12,402 nucleotides of DNA from an uncultured Rhodospirillaceae bacterium. GTDB lineage: Bacteria; Pseudomonadota; Alphaproteobacteria; Rhodospirillales; UBA2165. This document shows, one piece after another, positions 1 through 12,345 of the stretch. The notes beneath the pieces are model-generated. The model was not told the DNA's origin and ran no database searches. It saw only the letters and a program-made list of their open reading frames with translations. Position 1 is the first letter of the stretch. Each line of letters opens with the position of its first letter. Where the stretch lies: NCBI GenBank assembly GCA_913054205.1, contig CAJXJM010000036.1, positions 1-12,402 of the forward strand, in the 5' to 3' direction. A program made the translations under genes and the position numbers.

Positions 1-10
1 ATGAGTACAG

Positions 11-20
11 TTGTATACAA
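11..20. promoter_or_regulatory. 10-bp perfect palindrome, possible operator
   Basis: TTGTATACAA reads identically on both strands and lies in the AT-rich leader about 124 bases before the PAS-domain gene. It fits the general T-N-G-T...A-C-N-A shape bound by FadR-type GntR regulators, which is the only reason to suggest a function. No such regulator is visible in the window, and short AT-rich palindromes also arise by chance. The rest of 1-143 is very AT-rich and shows nothing else I can name. Confidence 0.25.
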
Positions 21-143
21 AATAAAAATCATCAAAATAAAGCAACTAAAGGTTGAAAATCGCATATAAAATAACAATATAATAATTATAAAAGTTAAAA
101 AAACGCACAGATTTTACTTTTTAGGGAAAATTGGTTTCAGATT

Positions 144-512
144 ATGCCAACAGCGTCGAAGGCATCTAGAGTTGCCGGTCTGTTTGACGATAAATTTGCG
201 ATCCTGCGTGACGAAGCGCTGGCACAACTGAGCGGCGAAGATACTTTGTGGGCGCTCGTTGAATACATACCCGATGCCGTCATTGTCCACAGCGATAATA
301 AAATTATTTATAACAATCCCGCTGCCGCCAAATTATTTGGCGCCAAAAAAGAAGATGATCTCCTAGGCGTTGATCCGAAGTCTCTTACCCATTCCGATGA
401 GCACAAAGAAATTTCAAAAAAGCGTAGCGAGGCTGTTCAAAACATTCGCGAAGGTGGCACTGCAGATCGTCGACATTTACGTCTCGATGGTACTGAGTTT
501 TTTTCAAGAAAT
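144..512 (+). pseudogene. PAS-domain sensor protein, 5' fragment
   Basis: The open frame runs from ATG 144 to a stop at 549-551 (135 residues), but only about the first 121 residues look genuine. Residues about 33-122 have PAS character: a YIPDAVIVHS strand, the NPAAAKLFGA helix, and a late RLDGTEFFSR strand typical of the end of a PAS fold. After residue 122 the frame runs antisense through a cheY fragment and ends in a meaningless tail. PAS domains sense ligands or redox state and usually precede a kinase, cyclase or second PAS domain; none is present. A weak AGGGA ribosome site lies 14-18 bases upstream. I read this as the front of a larger sensor gene cut by a deletion. A small standalone PAS protein with an altered tail is the alternative. 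Confidence 0.65.
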
Positions 513-716
513 ACCCGTCATAGGTTCCATATTCCAATCGGAAATGACTAAACCAAAATCTCCTTCATCGTCACGCAATTTACCCAGCGCTTCGGTTCCA
601 TCAATCGCTTCATCTACATTGTTAAAGTTCAACTGTTTAAGTAGATTACGCATAATGCGCAGCATGGTTTTGTAATCATCTACGATTAGAACACGCATGT
701 TCGTGTCAACAGCCAT
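504..716 (-). pseudogene. cheY: CheY-type response regulator, 5' fragment
   Basis: This is the first 66-69 codons of a chemotaxis receiver domain. Visible are the acidic pair D13-D14 in the IVDDYKTMLR motif, the phosphoacceptor aspartate D60 in VISDWNMEPMTG, and the typical NLLKQLNF helix. The match stops just after the MTG motif, about halfway through a normal receiver of roughly 120-130 residues. The switch Thr and the conserved Lys, which follow in the missing half, are absent, so the product cannot work as a phosphorylation switch. The start is ATG 716 with a GGAG ribosome site a few bases upstream. The 3' end collides with the PAS fragment on the other strand near 505-512. The motE remnant lies directly upstream on the same strand, consistent with a former motE-cheY operon. 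Confidence 0.85.
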
Positions 717-751
717 TAGTCACTCCATATTATCCGGCATCAGTTTAGAAC

Positions 752-775
752 AATATCTTTCTATAAGAAGATATT
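752..775. repeat. 8-bp inverted repeat between motE and cheY remnants
   Basis: AATATCTT at 752-759 pairs with AAGATATT at 768-775 across an 8-base loop. It sits in the cheY leader, between the motE stop and the cheY start on the minus strand. The stem is entirely AT-rich apart from one G-C pair and lacks a following T-run, so it is not a convincing terminator. It may be a leftover operator or an mRNA hairpin. Confidence 0.3.
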
Positions 776-839
776 ATGATAAATAGATAGTGATCCAACA
801 CCCATGTTTACAAGCTTTTTCAACGTCTTATCTTAGAAA

Positions 840-958
840 TTATGACCCAGGATTCGGTAAAGTGCGTAATTTAGCGAGTTCCACAGTCATTTCTTTAGCT
901 TTTTCAGGCCTCATTTTTGCCATAACAGGCGCTAACTTTCTTTCTTTCATGCGCTCAC
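840..958 (-). pseudogene. motE: MotE-type flagellar protein (MgtE N-domain-like), 3' fragment
   Basis: Reading the minus strand gives ERMKERKLAPVMAKMRPEKA followed by KEMTVELAKLRTLPN and a stop at 840-842, about 39 residues in total. This matches, from memory, the C-terminal end of the MotE family, whose MgtE intracellular-N-like domain ends with 'MKERKLAPVLAKM-P-KA-ELT-ELA'. MotE-type proteins act in the periplasm or at the inner membrane to stabilise the flagellar stator. The N-terminal membrane anchor, the coiled coil and most of the domain are absent. The homology stops at about 957, right where the flgH remnant begins on the opposite strand. No start codon with a ribosome site is present, so the piece is dead. 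It is too short for routine ORF calling, and the identification rests on this short motif. Confidence 0.62.
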
Positions 959-961
959 TGT

Positions 962-1267
962 ACGGAAGGTGACGGCGGGATTGATCGTGATGAGACCATC
1001 TCAGTTACACTCGCCGGCATTATTACCCAAATTCTACCAAACGGAAATTTGGTAATTTATGGACGCCAGGAATTAAAGGTAAACTTCGAGTTGCGTGAGG
1101 TGATGATCACAGGCGTCATTCGTTTAGAGGATATCGACTACACCAATACAGTTTCACACGACAAAATTGCTGAAATGCGCGTTGCTTATGGTGGGCGGAG
1201 AACACTCTCCGATCTACAGCAGCCTCGCTACGGAACACAAGTTATCGACATACTGTTCCCGTTCTAA
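962..1267 (+). pseudogene. flgH: Flagellar L-ring protein FlgH, 3' fragment
   Basis: From codon GAA 965 the frame reads EGDGGIDRDETI, then TQILPNGNLVIYGRQELKVN, FELRE, RLEDIDYTNTVS, and ends QQPRYGTQVIDILFPF. This is the hallmark C-terminal half of FlgH, the outer-membrane L-ring protein of the flagellar basal body. About 100 codons remain, whereas full FlgH is about 230-250 residues. The lipoprotein signal peptide and N-terminal half are gone. Upstream of 965 the frame no longer resembles FlgH and enters the antisense motE remnant, so the break lies near 957-964. Internal ATGs such as the one at 1058 have no ribosome site. The original C-terminus and the terminator just downstream are preserved, so the gene was cut only at its 5' side. 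Confidence 0.88.
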
Positions 1268-1292
1268 TTCCAAATACGGATTGGAACAACTT

Positions 1293-1325
1293 AGGGCCGA
1301 TGGGATTACCATCGGCCCTCTTTTT
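1293..1325 (+). terminator. Rho-independent terminator after flgH
   Basis: AGGGCCGATGG at 1293-1303 pairs perfectly with CCATCGGCCCT at 1309-1319 around a 5-base loop, followed by CTTTTTA. The 11-bp GC-rich stem plus T-run makes a strong intrinsic terminator 25 bases after the flgH stop. It presumably ended the ancestral flg operon and now ends only a remnant. On the minus strand the hairpin is followed by TAAGTTGTT, so it could at best weakly end dksA transcription. Confidence 0.88.
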
Positions 1326-1353
1326 ATGTGGGTAGGAGATCTGGATATTTATC

Positions 1354-1370
1354 TGCCATCCCCAATGGCA
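1354..1370 (-). other. Small hairpin after dksA
   Basis: TGCCAT at 1354-1359 pairs with ATGGCA at 1365-1370 around a 5-base loop, immediately beyond the dksA stop on the minus strand. No T-run follows, so a terminator role is uncertain. It may only stabilise the mRNA 3' end. Confidence 0.3.
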
Positions 1371-1373
1371 CCC

Positions 1374-1796
1374 TTAATCGTCTCGATGGATTTTTTCCAT
1401 CTTTTCGTGACGTTCTTGGGCTTCCAAACTTAACGTCGCAATCGGGCGGGCTTCTAGCCGTTTGATGCCGATTGGTTCATCGGTTTCCTCGCAATAGCCG
1501 TAGGAGCCATCTTCTACCCGCACTAAAGCCTCATCAATTTTACTGATCAGCTTACGCGCACGATCTCGCGTGCGTAATTCCAATGATCGATCAGTTTCCT
1601 TAGAAGCACGATCGGCAACATCGGGCTCCAGAATACTCGTTTCTTGCAAATTCTGGCGTGTTTCATTGGCATCGCCCAAAAGTTCAGACCGCCATTTCAG
1701 GAGCCTTTGTCGAAAATATTCCTTCTGCTTGGCATTCATAAACTTTTCTTTAGCAGTTGGCTTATAATCCGGCGGCAATGTTGTCATCATATCCAT
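1374..1796 (-). CDS. dksA: DksA/TraR-family transcription factor (one-cysteine type)
   Basis: Complete 140-residue protein. DksA enters the RNA polymerase secondary channel and, with ppGpp, tunes promoters of rRNA and stress genes. Visible are an N-terminal helical region, a coiled-coil hairpin whose tip carries VADRASKE (residues about 60-67), the RSLELRTRDR arm, and the C-terminal GYCEETDEPIGIKRLEARP segment (about 100-118). Of the four zinc-binding cysteines of E. coli DksA only C102 is recognisable, a pattern I recall as common in alphaproteobacterial DksA. The start is uncertain: ATG 1796 gives MDMMTT, and in-frame ATGs follow at codons 3 and 4; the upstream CCGGAA is a weak ribosome site. 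In related genomes a dksA-like gene sits inside the flagellar cluster between flgH and fliX, exactly as here, but unlike its neighbours this copy is intact, suggesting a function beyond motility. Confidence 0.9.
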   Translation of the reverse strand: MDMMTTLPPDYKPTAKEKFMNAKQKEYFRQRLLKWRSELLGDANETRQNLQETSILEPDVADRASKETDRSLELRTRDRARKLISKIDEALVRVEDGSYGYCEETDEPIGIKRLEARPIATLSLEAQERHEKMEKIHRDD

Positions 1797-1949
1797 AATT
1801 TATTCCGGACCCCGTAATACGTTGTTAAAACATTGAATTTGGCGGCATTTTATAGTTAGAGACAACGCATCGGACAAGCGCTGTTTTCGATGAAATTTCA
1901 CATTTAATTGAGAATCTGAAGAAAAACGCGGAATTCTGCGACTATGAGT

Positions 1950-2228
1950 TCAAATTTTTCGCGTAAATTTTGCGAGCTCGACCTCTGCGCGAAGCTCAAT
2001 ATCATTGATAATTTGCAATAACGCTGGATCTTTGACACTACTTTTCTTGGCGCGTAAGGTTTGAGCAAGGTTGGTTAGGCGATCTTTAGGTATCGCACCT
2101 ACCAATAGATCACGTTGAATTTCGTCCAAACGATCTAATACATCAGCACCATATTTTTGCATCTGTTGACGGGCTTTTTCGCCGTCATCATCGCTGACTT
2201 CCTGAGCGGCAAGGATCGATCCCACTCG
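1950..2228 (-). pseudogene. fliX: Flagellar assembly regulator FliX, 3' fragment
   Basis: About 91 codons with the FliX C-terminal signature: GSILAAQEV, then GADVLDRLDEIQRDLLVGAI, PKDRL, and IINDIELRAEVELAKF. FliX is an alphaproteobacterial protein that works with FlbD to couple basal-body assembly to late flagellar transcription; full length is about 140 residues. The first 45 or so residues are missing. The nearest possible start, GTG 2225, has no ribosome site, and an in-frame TGA lies 21 bases further upstream. The recognisable homology begins at this GTG, with unrelated AT-rich sequence before it. The normal neighbour of fliX is a divergent flgI, but here the region leads into flgE, so the 5' end of fliX and the intervening genes have been removed. 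Confidence 0.82.
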
Positions 2229-2383
2229 ACAACATATTAATAATCAGAGAAACAACGACAACAACTGAATAACAATCGACCCAAAATCAATAGTGGTCGA
2301 AATATAAAGAGAATTTTAGTGAGACGCGTGAAGAGCAAAGTAAACCGAGCCAACAGATTAATTAAGTTGGCCTCCGTAGGCAT

Positions 2384-2389
2384 AGGAGA
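2384..2389 (+). promoter_or_regulatory. Ribosome binding site of the flgE remnant
   Basis: AGGAGA lies six bases before ATG 2396, a strong Shine-Dalgarno that fixes the flgE start. The leader from about 2230 to 2383 is AT-rich, includes the palindrome TTAATTAA at 2358-2365, and shows no sigma-54 element with correct -24/-12 spacing. Since site and start are intact, the truncated flgE could still be translated if transcribed. Confidence 0.75.
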
Positions 2390-2395
2390 AGAAAA

Positions 2396-2689
2396 ATGAG
2401 CTTATACGGTGCAATGTTCTCGGGCGTTTCTGGCCTTAATGCGAATTCGCAGGCCTTGGGCGCTATCGCGGATAATATTACCAACGTGAATACGATTGGT
2501 TACAAATCCACTGAGGTGCGATTTCAAACCCTGGTGACGGCGCAAGCCAGTGCCAACAACTACTCACCTGTTGGTGTTCAGCAGCGTCCTTTTGCCGCCG
2601 TTGATGTCCAGGGTCTGTTCCAGTCGAGTACCAACTCGACTGATTTGGGCATTTCCGGTAGTGGTTTCGACCAACATGCCCAAGACTGA
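2396..2689 (+). pseudogene. flgE: Flagellar hook protein FlgE, 5' fragment
   Basis: The first 91 codons are a clean FlgE N-terminus: MSLYGAMFSGVSGLNANSQA, then NITNVNTIGYKSTEVRF, and later STDLGISGSGF. These are the flagellar rod/hook N-terminal helix and the conserved 'ISG-GFF' turn. FlgE is the hook subunit, exported by the flagellar type III system, and is normally 400 or more residues. Immediately after F91 the sequence switches to antisense fliI, giving a junk tail of six residues and a stop at 2687-2689. The D1/D2 domains and the C-terminal helix are lost, so no hook can be made from this gene. Confidence 0.9.
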
Positions 2690-2764
2690 TACGACCCGAC
2701 CATATTCGTGGAACGATGGCAGACGATCTATTTCGCTAATGATATTTTTTATTAAGACGGTCAC
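2666..2764 (-). pseudogene. fliI: Flagellar export ATPase FliI, 5' fragment
   Basis: The first 33 codons on the minus strand read IISEIDRLPSFHEYGRVVSV and then LGMLVE, matching the FliI N-terminal pattern 'EI--LP----YGRV--V-G-LVE' that precedes the beta-barrel. FliI is the ATPase of the flagellar type III export apparatus, usually about 430-450 residues. The Walker motifs and all catalytic regions are missing. Homology stops exactly where flgE begins: the triplet TTC at 2666-2668 encodes flgE F91 on one strand and fliI E33 on the other. The start is GTG 2764 or a nearby non-ATG codon, with an in-frame stop seven codons upstream. Head-to-head placement with ctrA at 2991 fits the fliI-ctrA arrangement I recall from Rhodospirillales. 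Confidence 0.75.
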
Positions 2765-2905
2765 GCATAATCCGTTTTTGATTCACCACTTAAATTCTTT
2801 TTTATTTTCGGGTCATTCTAATCACGACCCTTGTTTATCAGGTGATTTAGAAGCGACTGCCTGGACCACCCATTTTTGTATGTAAATATTATAACGCCAA
2901 ATTGA

Positions 2906-2920
2906 TTAACCAAGCTTGAA
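2906..2920. promoter_or_regulatory. Candidate CtrA binding site upstream of ctrA
   Basis: TTAA-N7-TGAA at 2906-2920 differs by one base from the CtrA consensus TTAA-N7-TTAA, and the first half extends to TTAACC as in good sites. It lies 71 bases before the ctrA start, in the region between fliI and ctrA. CtrA autoregulation is known in Caulobacter, so a site here is plausible. The AT-rich context makes chance matches fairly likely. Confidence 0.4.
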
Positions 2921-2990
2921 TATCTTAACTGTGGGCCTTATTGTTACTTTCTTAACGTTTTGAAAAATGCGGTTTCAGGTGAGCTAAGTC

Positions 2991-3719
2991 ATGCGCGTAC
3001 TTCTTGTAGAAGATGATCCAACAACAACAAAAAGCATTGAAATGATGCTGTCCTCTGCCGGTATGGTTCTGGATACCACCGACCTTGGTGAAGATGGATT
3101 GGAAATCGGTAAATTATACGATTACGATATAATTATTCTTGATTTAATGCTTCCGGATATGGACGGATATGAGGTGCTTCGAGGTTTGCGCGCCTCAAAA
3201 GTTGAAACGCCTGTTCTTATTCTCTCTGGCCTCTTAGAGGCTGAAAACAAAGTCAAAGGCCTCGGCTCAGGCGCCGACGACTATTTGACAAAACCATTTA
3301 ACAAAGACGAGCTAATCGCTCGCATCCATGCTATTGTAAGACGTTCAAAAGGGCATGCAGAATCTATCATTCGCACTGGCAAAATGGCTGTTAATTTGGA
3401 TGGCAGGACTGTTGAAGTCGATGATAAATCAGTACATTTGACTGGAAAAGAATACGGTATCCTAGAGCTCCTTTCTTTGCGCAAGGGAACGACCCTAACG
3501 AAAGAAATGTTTCTCAACCATCTATATAATGGAATGGATGAGCCCGAGCTTAAAATCATTGATGTTTTTGTGTGCAAACTACGCAAAAAACTTTCTAATG
3601 CATCGTCTGATGAAAGTTATATCCACACTGTATGGGGCCGTGGGTATGTCCTGCGTGAACCAGAAGAAAATGCAGAGGACGCTAGTTCGCAGAAGAAGCG
3701 CGCAAAAGCGTCAGCCTAA
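2991..3719 (+). CDS. ctrA: Cell-cycle and motility master regulator CtrA
   Basis: Complete 242-residue OmpR-type response regulator. The receiver (1-120) has the acidic pair E7-D8-D9, phosphoacceptor D51 in [13 protein letters not shown], and the KPFNKDEL lysine loop. The winged helix carries the highly conserved CtrA stretches [20 protein letters not shown] and [20 protein letters not shown], then the [14 protein letters not shown] wing. CtrA controls flagellar, chemotaxis, pilus, gene-transfer-agent and, in some lineages, division genes. It is phosphorylated through the CckA-ChpT relay, and chpT is the next complete gene here. AGGTGAG at 2977-2983 is a strong ribosome site seven bases before the ATG. 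The C-terminus ends in a charged tail finishing ASA, reminiscent of the alanine-ended ClpXP degron of Caulobacter CtrA. All key residues are intact despite the decay around it. Confidence 0.97.
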
Positions 3720-3785
3720 TTTCTGTGCCGAAAAATTTTTCATAAATGTGAAACTAATGGCTGCCAGTGAGCACGGCCGTTTTGT

Positions 3786-3815
3786 CGTCAAAAATTCGCT
3801 TAACAGATCATCCAT
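3786..3815 (-). pseudogene. cheA: Chemotaxis kinase CheA, first ten codons
   Basis: On the minus strand ATG 3815 begins MDDLLSEFLT, the characteristic opening of alphaproteobacterial CheA (MDDLL-EFLTET-E). It is preceded by a good ribosome site, GGAGAG at 3821-3826 in plus coordinates, five bases before the ATG. After codon 10 or 11 the frame runs into unrelated residues (KRPCSLAAIS...) and stops within 25 more codons just past the ctrA end. It lies directly downstream of chpT on the same strand, as expected for a chpT-cheA-cheW operon. The P1 histidine and every catalytic domain are gone. Ten codons are little evidence alone; the ribosome site and position make the case. Confidence 0.6.
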
Positions 3816-3877
3816 TTTCACTCTCCGGCGTATTTCTCATTAAAAGACGGATAAATTTACCCGATTACAATCACATG

Positions 3878-3890
3878 GGCATTTAATGCC
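3878..3890. repeat. Palindrome between chpT and cheA remnant
   Basis: GGCATT-T-AATGCC at 3878-3890 is a perfect 6-bp inverted repeat with a one-base centre, in the 151 bases between the chpT stop and the cheA start. It is more like an operator than a hairpin. The rest of 3720-3966, apart from the cheA piece and the AT palindrome GAAAAATTTTTC at 3730-3741, shows nothing recognisable. Confidence 0.3.
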
Positions 3891-3966
3891 AAATTCGAAC
3901 CTTTAAATTGCAATAAATTGTAACTTTTCGATTCTTGAGTCTGTCAGGCGTTGTTTATACGCGTTC

Positions 3967-4605
3967 TCACGACACCTTGAATACAATGAGAGGTGGGGAT
4001 TCATCGGCCAGTTTCAAGGTTTTCTCGCAACTTTTCGCTAATTTTCGGCAATAATAAGCAAGAATGTTTCGAACAGTTAATGAATCGGCTGAAATTTGCT
4101 CATCCAACCCAGATTTCACATCATCGCGTAAATTACATTTGTCTCCGTTTATCGAGGCTGTAAAGTCTGGGTTTCTACTATTACCTTCGAAAGAAAACTC
4201 TATCCGGCCACCGCGTGGCAGACAATCGGACGCCATCAAAACCAAATTTAACAACAGCTTCCCATTAAATTTTTCAACATTTGATTGTAAAAGTGTGTCA
4301 TCTCCGAGCCAATCAACGTCTATTTTCTTTTCAATTGCAAATTTCTCAATAAGTTCAACAACCGTTTTAAAGGCAATCAGATCATCCGATCCTCCGACTC
4401 CGAACGCCAATCTAAAATACGCCAACCGATCGGCTGCCTGTTTTGCGCTCGTATCGATTAGTTTTGATGCTTCATTGGCCATTTCAGAAGATTCATCTTG
4501 GAGAAACTCTAGACCATTATTTATGGCACCAATTGGACTGATCAAATCGTGACACAATTTGGAACACAACAATTCAGTCATTTTCATTTCGTTTTTGTCG
4601 ATCAT
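3967..4605 (-). CDS. chpT: Histidine phosphotransferase ChpT
   Basis: Complete 212-residue protein. ChpT relays phosphate from the hybrid kinase CckA to CtrA and CpdR in the cytoplasm. The signature is ELLCSKLCHDLISPIGAINN (residues 11-30) with the phospho-accepting H19 followed by D20, the same CHD-ISP-GAI-NGLE motif as in Caulobacter ChpT. A helical hairpin for dimerisation follows (about 40-70), and then a degenerate Bergerat-like domain (about 75-212) with GKLLLNLVLMASDCLPRGG in place of an ATP-binding fold. ATG 4605 is followed by MIDKNEMKM; an in-frame ATG seven codons later is possible. Downstream is the cheA stub, so chpT was probably the first gene of a chemotaxis operon. Its retention beside an intact ctrA indicates that the relay is still selected. 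Confidence 0.9.
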   Translation of the reverse strand: MIDKNEMKMTELLCSKLCHDLISPIGAINNGLEFLQDESSEMANEASKLIDTSAKQAADRLAYFRLAFGVGGSDDLIAFKTVVELIEKFAIEKKIDVDWLGDDTLLQSNVEKFNGKLLLNLVLMASDCLPRGGRIEFSFEGNSRNPDFTASINGDKCNLRDDVKSGLDEQISADSLTVRNILAYYCRKLAKSCEKTLKLADESPPLIVFKVS

Positions 4606-4660
4606 TTTAGTATTACTCGATTTAATGTTTTCGGCAGCTCACATCGATAAAATTGGTTAT

Positions 4661-11820: not shown

Positions 11821-12345
11821 TCATCTATTTTTTTGGTTCGGCGGCGTTAGTGCGCGATCACCGTACCACCAAACTGTTGCGGTTGAGGCGGAGAAAAACA
11901 CCGAATAAATCATATAACGGATAATGTCAGTGATATCAGATTCTCTGAGCCATTCGATCAGCGATCCGCCGATCACCAACCAAAATATCCAAGCAGCTAT
12001 TCCCCACAGGACAATCGTCAAAAAGGGCCGGAACAAGGCGCGGATATCGTTTACCCATAGATGAACTTTCTTGATGGATTGCTCCGAGCGATGACTTTCA
12101 CGGAGCCCCTCCCAGGAACCTTCCTGGGATACAATGGCGAGTTCCTGCTCCGTTTCTGCCGCGCGGGCCTCCATTTGCAACTCGAGCATAGTGGTTTCAT
12201 GATCCCATTTTTGCTTCTCCCAATTTTGGCGTTGCTTCTCTTGCAGATATTTTGCGCCGGCGCCTATTATTGAGCCCAGCAAGCCAAACAAGCCGCCACT
12301 GGCGACCGAGGCCAGACCACCGGCGAGACCACTTAAGATATCCAT
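11821..12345 (-). CDS. Holin-like phage membrane protein (3TM type)
   Basis: A 174-residue protein resembling the three-segment holins of alphaproteobacterial gene transfer agents and prophages (GTA_holin_3TM-like), from memory of the layout rather than a search. A glycine-rich hydrophobic N-terminus (residues 3-32, GLAGGLASVASGGLFGLLGS) is followed by a charged helical stretch of coiled-coil type (about 34-92, KQRQNWEKQKW). Two membrane helices follow: 106-128 (RPFLTIVLWGIAAWIFWLVI) and 141-161. The end, TATVWWYGDRALTPP, is typical of these phage proteins. Holins make the membrane lesion that releases endolysin. ATG 12345 has AAGGAG ten bases upstream, an excellent ribosome site. The gene looks more GC-rich than the genes to its left, which suggests acquisition. 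Neighbouring phage genes would lie beyond the right edge; none is visible here. Confidence 0.6.
   Translation of the reverse strand: MDILSGLAGGLASVASGGLFGLLGSIIGAGAKYLQEKQRQNWEKQKWDHETTMLELQMEARAAETEQELAIVSQEGSWEGLRESHRSEQSIKKVHLWVNDIRALFRPFLTIVLWGIAAWIFWLVIGGSLIEWLRESDITDIIRYMIYSVFFSASTATVWWYGDRALTPPNQKNR

Follow-up and report, generated by a model that had tools for sequence, protein, structure and literature searches.

Why would three regulatory genes stay whole in a row of cut flagellar and chemotaxis genes? The question is raised by a stretch of 12,402 nucleotides (the window), which is the whole contig C36 of a metagenome-assembled genome (MAG) of an uncultured Rhodospirillaceae bacterium, here called G000. 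Positions 1-4605 of the window are the collinear collapse of a flagellar and chemotaxis cluster of a marine Rhodospirillales genus: nine pieces cut within the coding sequence (PAS, cheY, motE, flgH, fliX, flgD, flgE, fliI and cheA) stand in line with dksA, ctrA and chpT, which are complete. Very probably, this segment is the remnant of a flagellar-chemotaxis supercluster after at least five large deletions, the regulators having been spared by selection.

The row of cut genes and its ancestral cluster

G000 comprises 2.89 Mb in 510 contigs (88.86% complete, 2.85% contaminated). We compared it with congeners, among others G001, G002, G005, G006 and G007 (of which G001, G005 and G007 are flagellate), and with a second genus, g11 (G018, G022 and G023; 98, 98 and 99% complete). 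Families were assigned by Pfam and NCBIfam profile searches of the window proteins, and relics were compared with intact homologues by tblastn, DNA matching and codon-by-codon alignment. Gene names from outside the profile searches (the cluster order of G005, pyruvate carboxylase-like, ABC transporter-like) were read from translations.

The cluster can be read on one 58-kb stretch of G005; in G001 it is spread over three contigs. In G005 it opens with fliO, fliP, a large TPR-type gene, motB-like, motE-like, fliM, fliL, flgF, flgG, flgA, flgH, dksA and fliX, continues with a second hook-like gene, flgI, flgJ, flgN, flgK, flgL, flagellin, flbT, flaF, fliK, flgD and flgE, and ends with a further gene, fliF, fliG, fliH, fliN, motA, flbD, flhA, fleN, fliJ, fliI, ctrA and chpT. 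G006 and G002 have cheR, cheB, cheY and cheA as extra genes between ctrA and chpT. DNA matches divide the window into blocks that follow in the ancestral order and strand (510-956, cheY and motE; 952-2225, flgH, dksA and fliX; 2318-2658, flgE; 2666-3722, fliI and ctrA; 3787-4605, cheA and chpT), and the gene order and strands of the pieces are those of G005 and G006. Alignment to a motile relative, which had been proposed as a check, showed that 39.0 kb of G005, measured from its motE homologue through chpT, correspond to 4.1 kb of the window, measured from cheY through chpT. If the 47 cluster genes were equally likely to be kept, the chance of retaining exactly dksA, ctrA and chpT would be 1 in 16,215, a post hoc figure.

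The original prediction, made from the sequence of the window, had listed eight pieces and an ancestral order running from the PAS gene to chpT. All eight were recovered as genes cut within their coding sequence by Pfam, NCBIfam and intact homologues, while the flgD 3' end between fliX and flgE had been missed. The proposed order stands from cheY to chpT, and the left flank is rearranged. The PAS gene there is found in none of the flagellar clusters examined and is not a flagellar gene; it has no close homologue, the best being 35% identical in the eight other genus members searched and 39% among nine other genomes.

As to the remaining assignments, none of the fragments failed to match its named family, motE being named only through the MgtE_N domain of its full-length homologue; no NCBIfam model matched the 42-residue motE piece itself. 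With NCBIfam models, the scores of the FlgH, FliX and FlgE pieces are about 90-105 bits, under the whole-protein equivalog cut-offs, as expected because they are fragments, and the FlgE piece is over the FlgEFG subfamily cut-off (90.1 vs 70.25). The cheA stub scores 48 and 45, compared with 26 and 23 at most for 238 tiles placed outside the site; its alignment to G006 requires small gaps. The relics presumably make no product. In agreement with the prediction that the regulators are complete, dksA and ctrA pass their NCBIfam cut-offs; for chpT, which stays under its NCBIfam cut-off, the Pfam match and the collinearity with relatives point the same way (Table 1). A CtrA-box scan upstream of ctrA found no TTAA-N7-TTAA in G000 and one in 1 of 9 genomes.

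Table 1. Relics, complete genes and other elements of the collapsed segment
Feature	Position	Strand	Basis
PAS-domain gene, 5' part, cut within PAS domain	144..509	+	PF13426 (PAS_9), 31.5 bits, model positions 1-76 of 103
cheY, first 69 codons	510..716	-	PF00072 Response_reg, positions 1-58 of 111; 94% identical to G006 residues 1-71 of 131
motE-like (MgtE_N), 3' part	843..956	-	tblastn to G006 residues 198-239 of 239; G006 and G001 DNA matches stop at 956
flgH, 3' part, stop codon included	957..1267	+	PF02107, 76 bits, positions 102-172 of 172; homologue residues 146-257 of 257
Terminator-like inverted repeat plus T-run between flgH and dksA	1293..1325		Read from sequence
dksA, complete	1374..1796	-	TIGR02420, 146.6 bits vs cut-off 115.5; Pfam DksA
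fliX, 3' part, C-terminal 91 residues	1950..2225	-	PF10768, 89.3 bits, positions 50-134 of 135; homologue residues 75-165 of 165; G006/G002 DNA match ends at 2225
flgD, 3' end (IPLDNILIIRETTTTTE, then stop)	2219..2272	+	Comparison with flgD C-termini of G001 and G005
flgE, 5' part, ~88 codons; upstream leader from ~2318	2396..2660	+	87% identical to G001 flgE residues 1-91 of 570; NF040922, 103.6 bits; Pfam rod/hook N-terminus
fliI, 5' part, ~33 codons	2665..2764	-	77% identical to G001 fliI residues 1-35 of 517; G006/G002 DNA matches start at 2666/2667
Promoter-like element of ctrA, TTGAAT-N17-TATTGT	2916..2944	+	TTGAAT-N17-TATT(G/A)T in 9/9 aligned upstream regions; putative promoter role
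ctrA, complete	2991..3719	+	NF045991, 411.8 bits vs cut-off 350; 95% identical to G006
cheA, 5' stub, ~13-17 codons, ends at start codon	3777..3815	-	Local alignment to G002 and G006 cheA starts, scores 48 and 45
chpT, complete	3967..4605	-	PF10090 (HPTransfase), 71.5 bits, over its cut-off; collinear with G001, G002, G005 and G006
Possible further junction, chpT/modE	4606..4660		Gene order: formate dehydrogenase genes absent here

At least five junctions lie within the segment: PAS/cheY at about 509/510, as found by junction alignment (junction 1), motE/flgH within about 950-968 (junction 2), fliX/flgD at about 2216-2226 (junction 3), flgE/fliI at about 2657-2671 (junction 4), and the region downstream of ctrA/cheA between about 3722 and 3777 (junction 5). 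Since the DNA of the relatives is about 75% identical, breakpoints can be placed only to within a few bases. At junctions where both parents are readable, these have about 3-7 bases in common. The collapse is best explained by five or more distinct large deletions in the supercluster, with a rearranged flank involved in the leftmost. Given the few bases shared, they may have arisen by illegitimate recombination. They would have persisted because the cell had no more use for motility, whereas any deletion that ran into dksA, ctrA or chpT would have been purged by selection, these genes presumably having other jobs (DksA in transcription control, ChpT and CtrA in a phosphorelay with non-flagellar targets).

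Could the joins instead be chimeras made by the assembler or by binning, the real genome having a full cluster? This is a metagenome assembly in many contigs, and contig C246 ends in exactly the 55 bases with which the window starts (1-55), an overlap of the kind an assembly graph leaves and hence the sign of a graph assembler. A false join, however, needs a shared 55-mer (taking k as about 55 from the overlap), and the readable junctions share few bases with both parents. Moreover, it is unlikely that five or more false joins would fall within 4 kb and all keep to the ancestral order. Searches of the other contigs of G000 did not turn up the missing genes, and a comparable collapse is seen in the near-complete g11 genomes. 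We therefore give an artefact very little credence.

To the right of ctrA, the order chpT, DUF364, mobA, fdhD, moaA, nadK, AbrB and pyrD is common to the window, G005 and G001; 3' of chpT, G005 has the same genes as follow chpT and modE in the window, modE itself not being seen there. On the left, the overlap with C246 places an amino-acid ABC transporter-like operon upstream of the window, where a pyruvate carboxylase-like gene stands in G002 and G005; the latter gene has no match in G000, and matches in G002, G004, G006 and G008.

A further junction is possible between chpT and modE, which are adjacent in the window: formate dehydrogenase genes lie between them in G002, and beside chpT in G006 and g11. 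A candidate remnant of these genes at 4613-4654 (14 residues, 50% identical, E 9.6) was not significant by DNA and was discarded, and we claim only the absence of the genes from this place. Another formate dehydrogenase-like gene of G000 lies in pieces on C250 and C150.

Flagellar genes elsewhere in the genome and its congeners

We asked what the rest of G000 retains, as had also been suggested with the original prediction. Searches of the assembly gave no match for flhA, fliF or methyl-accepting chemotaxis protein (MCP) genes, while controls matched, and no true copy of fliG was found, the single FliG_C match being a 150-aa unrelated gene. A 20-kb query covering the left half of the G005 cluster matched only the window contig in G000, and a 9.5-kb query from fliG to fliJ matched just twice, over short lengths within the flbD stretch. 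Outside the window, one flagellin gene is left, considered below. The flagellate congeners G001, G005 and G007 have both flhA and fliF. We infer that the cell of the window can no longer build a flagellum and does not swim; this part of the prediction, loss of motility, stands insofar as flhA, fliF and a true fliG were not found in an assembly that is 88.9% complete.

It might be argued that the core genes sit on another, unbinned replicon or contig and that the cell still swims. G002 and G006 lend themselves to this argument: neither has a flhA or fliF match, yet their remaining flagellar genes are whole, except for one stop in a G002 cheY, and constrained (ratio of changes at codon positions 1+2 to 3 of 0.25, compared with 0.26 for the pair G001-G003). 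They keep cheA, cheB, cheR and cheY, with 4 and 6 MCPs, and a full fliG elsewhere, as would be expected there if the cluster were split and in part unbinned, or if the loss were very recent. In G000, on the contrary, every flagellar or che gene of the cluster that could be located is a truncated stub, among them motE, flgH, fliX and cheA, which are still whole in G002 and G006; MCPs and a true fliG are missing as well, and the flgD and flgE ends show that its deletions differ from those of G002 and G006. Relocation in G000 thus has only a slim chance of being right.

For G002 and G006 themselves, true flagellar loss is uncertain. We did not accept them as certain further losses, considering that their remaining flagellar and che genes and MCPs look functional and that relocation or missing contigs are possible. 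The fliG of these two genomes (339 aa) stands alone at a shared non-flagellar locus, on C43 (L088) in G002 and on C65 (L086:4016-5035) in G006, where it scores over the equivalog cut-off (263.3 vs 226.7).

The deletions in the three genomes are not one event. G002 lacks a stretch, with flgN joined to fliJ, and G006 lacks a stretch that joins flgI near residue 320 to fliI near residue 225-229. One ancestral deletion common to G000, G002 and G006 is ruled out by the flgD and flgE ends of G000, which lie within the block missing from the other two. Both fliI ends are kept in G002 (residues 1-112 and 252-444, on two contigs) and are mostly gone in G000. Therefore, with the flgD and flgE ends kept in G000 and both fliI ends in G002, neither of these two states can be the ancestor of the other. 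A flgE proper was not found at the G002 and G006 loci, nor among the 12 of 27 and 12 of 34 candidates scored in those genomes.

In G004, contig C249 (L092) holds the 3' end of flhA (its last ~28 codons) and an entire fleN, with unrelated genes next to them; this may be one more flagellar locus that has collapsed.

Age of the deletions

Gradual pseudogene decay is typical of old reductive genomes, and flagellar genes decay in this way in host-restricted or streamlined bacteria, whose flagellum was lost in lineages with flagellate relatives. Applied to the window, such a history would mean that point mutations made pseudogenes first and that large deletions came later, over a long time. It finds some support in g11, where a flagellin and a fliI stub drift neutrally, and in the flgH relic, which is somewhat more changed than expected (18/95 residues for G000-G006 vs 8/95 for G002-G006). 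The window nonetheless differs from the host-restricted and streamlined cases in its large deletions and in its relic codons: no stop and no frameshift was found in the 408 counted, the cheA stub and the flgD end being outside this count.

Excess change was also mostly missing. In the three-way counts, from which flgE was left out because G002 and G006 lack it, lineage-unique changes at positions 1+2/3 over five relics (320 codons) were 28/66 for G000, 29/46 for G002 and 23/49 for G006 (Fisher p 0.40); on this test, no more than about 8% of the G000 branch, or 18% with a conservative baseline, can have been unconstrained. There was likewise no excess at positions 1+2 with G002 or G006 as outgroup, in the pairwise per-site ratios (0.178 for G000-G006, 0.202 for G000-G002, 0.209 for G002-G006), or clearly against G006 with G001 as outgroup (26/35 vs 21/46, p 0.20). 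The lack of stops and frameshifts, with mostly no excess change, favours recent large deletions over slow decay, and we regard a gradual history as highly improbable. At the codon level, the data point to large deletions, and not accumulated point decay, as what made the present state, in line with the few large deletions sparing regulators that had been predicted. These deletions are probably, not certainly, recent, i.e. young relative to the age of the species.

Several observations count against our overall reading of the segment. When G001 serves as outgroup, for which four relics and 250-251 codons were used (cheY was dropped, G001 lacking an orthologue at that place, score 53), the relics of G000 exceed G002 in change at positions 1+2 (30/31 vs 18/51, p 0.010), as gradual decay would have it; at face value, this test would let as much as 0.5-0.8 of the branch fall after the loss, which would allow an older loss. 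Part of this excess looks like a property of G002, as the intact genes of G006 also lean above it with the same outgroup (28/31 vs 21/40, p 0.19; kept genes 79/111 vs 36/90, p 0.023). Junction 1 is not a simple deletion, since the left flank, with the PAS gene and C246, is unlike that of G002 or G005. ChpT scores 156 with NF046018 against a whole-protein cut-off of 240, though its position and length fit. The species is represented by one MAG assembly, and in a MAG of 510 contigs that is 88.86% complete, missing single genes are not proof of loss. The absence of MCPs is not diagnostic of flagellar loss because the flagellate G001, G005 and G007 also have none. Finally, one complete flagellin gene is left elsewhere in G000, at C88:5382-6203 (locus L093).

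The neighbourhood of this flagellin is common to G006 (C52, L127) and G008 (C28, L128), where the gene likewise lies beside metabolic, non-flagellar genes. Among the three genomes, its positions 1+2 differ by 4-10% and position 3 by 40-53%, a pattern of constraint; G000, G006 and G008 have no fliF or flhA match.

The second genus and the kept regulators

The same locus has collapsed in g11. No flhA, fliG, fliF or MCP match was found in G018, G022 or G023, and the locus of G018 and G022 reads dksA, flagellin, flbT, a fliI 5' stub, ctrA and chpT, then two formate dehydrogenase genes. In G023, all six genes were aligned singly, and flagellin, flbT, ctrA, chpT and the dehydrogenase genes are open frames in the same order. 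An unrooted tree of ctrA, chpT and dksA splits g11 together with G015 from the genus of the window with a support of 100, and does not resolve the order within the latter (support 51-71). Both flhA and fliF are present in G015, as in G001, G005 and G007, which makes the loss in g11 separate from that in G000 unless flagella were regained. Apparently, g11 collapsed independently and longer ago than G000.

This second collapse allows selection on the survivors to be compared with drift beside them. Between G018 and G022, changes at positions 1+2/3 of flagellin are 43/17, the neutral 2:1 pattern, vs 3/16 in ctrA, 1/13 in dksA, 23/30 in chpT and 8/13 in flbT (Fisher tests against flagellin: p 2.6e-5, 1.2e-5, 0.0039 and 0.0088, respectively). 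The two pairs with G023 agree (flagellin 79/42 and 81/48; ctrA 6/30 and 7/21; dksA 2/14 and 1/15; chpT 34/35 and 26/30; flbT 11/19 and 8/18). These counts indicate that, within the same few kb, flagellin is free of constraint while ctrA, dksA, chpT and flbT are constrained. The fliI stub of g11 drifts and carries a stop codon in G023, and we rejected the idea that it is maintained as coding sequence. The flbT gene, a flagellin-regulating gene (PF07378; G018 L126:12897-13295, with counterparts in G022 and G023), is under purifying selection in these three genomes despite the loss of the flagellum.

What the spared regulators have in common is that they are pleiotropic (DksA, CtrA and ChpT); the flagellum- or chemotaxis-specific FliX, CheY and CheA were not spared. 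That dksA, ctrA and chpT are whole amid cut flagellar genes suggests a role other than running the flagellum, and the constraint on CtrA and ChpT in g11 beside a drifting flagellin argues for the same. Selection thus probably maintains the CtrA/ChpT relay for a purpose other than flagella. We also propose, more tentatively and with some doubt, that the family collapsed at least twice by different deletions with the same set kept (DksA, CtrA and ChpT, plus FlbT in one genus), the CtrA relay, possibly with FlbT and stray flagellins, having a conserved non-motility role in this early-branching order.

Passages of the literature bear on this point. One proposal is that the CtrA pathway originally served motility, a view that leans on the early-branching Rhodospirillales (Greene et al. 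2012, as cited in PMC12363192 and PMC8116508), and the roles named for the relay in the relevant passages are motility, DNA repair, cell division and cell cycle (PMC9430884, PMC8116508). In Rhodospirillum rubrum, ctrA, cckA and chpT are reported in association with flagellar genes (PMC12363192). The ancestral arrangement of the window resembles this, with ctrA and chpT within the flagellar cluster and both whole; the difference is that the flagellar genes around them are gone here and both regulators stay. On the other hand, PMC8116508 identified chpT, cckA and divL in only 27-36% of the Rhodospirillales genomes it covered, and suggests that selection for their retention is lower.

Caulobacteraceae that lost the flagellum independently within flagellate lineages (Phenylobacterium immobile, Acaudatibacter) are described in PMC12700997. 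The resemblance is that these too are independent losses among flagellate Alphaproteobacteria; they belong to another order, and the flagellar genes are completely lacking there, no junctions or relics being described in the passages concerned. Convergent flagellar loss in Alphaproteobacteria is therefore already known, and so is the retention of CtrA after loss of the flagellum; our literature search found no description of this locus. A ChpT scan of named genomes gave no match. What is new here is the base-level, replicated record of the collapse. With ctrA and chpT left whole, it amounts to a natural deletion experiment, whose survivors would be those needed for reasons other than swimming. 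The non-flagellar role of CtrA in Rhodospirillales becomes directly testable in this way, the drifting flagellin of g11 being an internal neutral control in the same few kb.

At the far end of the window (11821-12345, minus strand), a 174-aa protein that is not at that place in G005 matches phrog_6637, of unknown function (E 3.6e-11), and adjoins pyrD.

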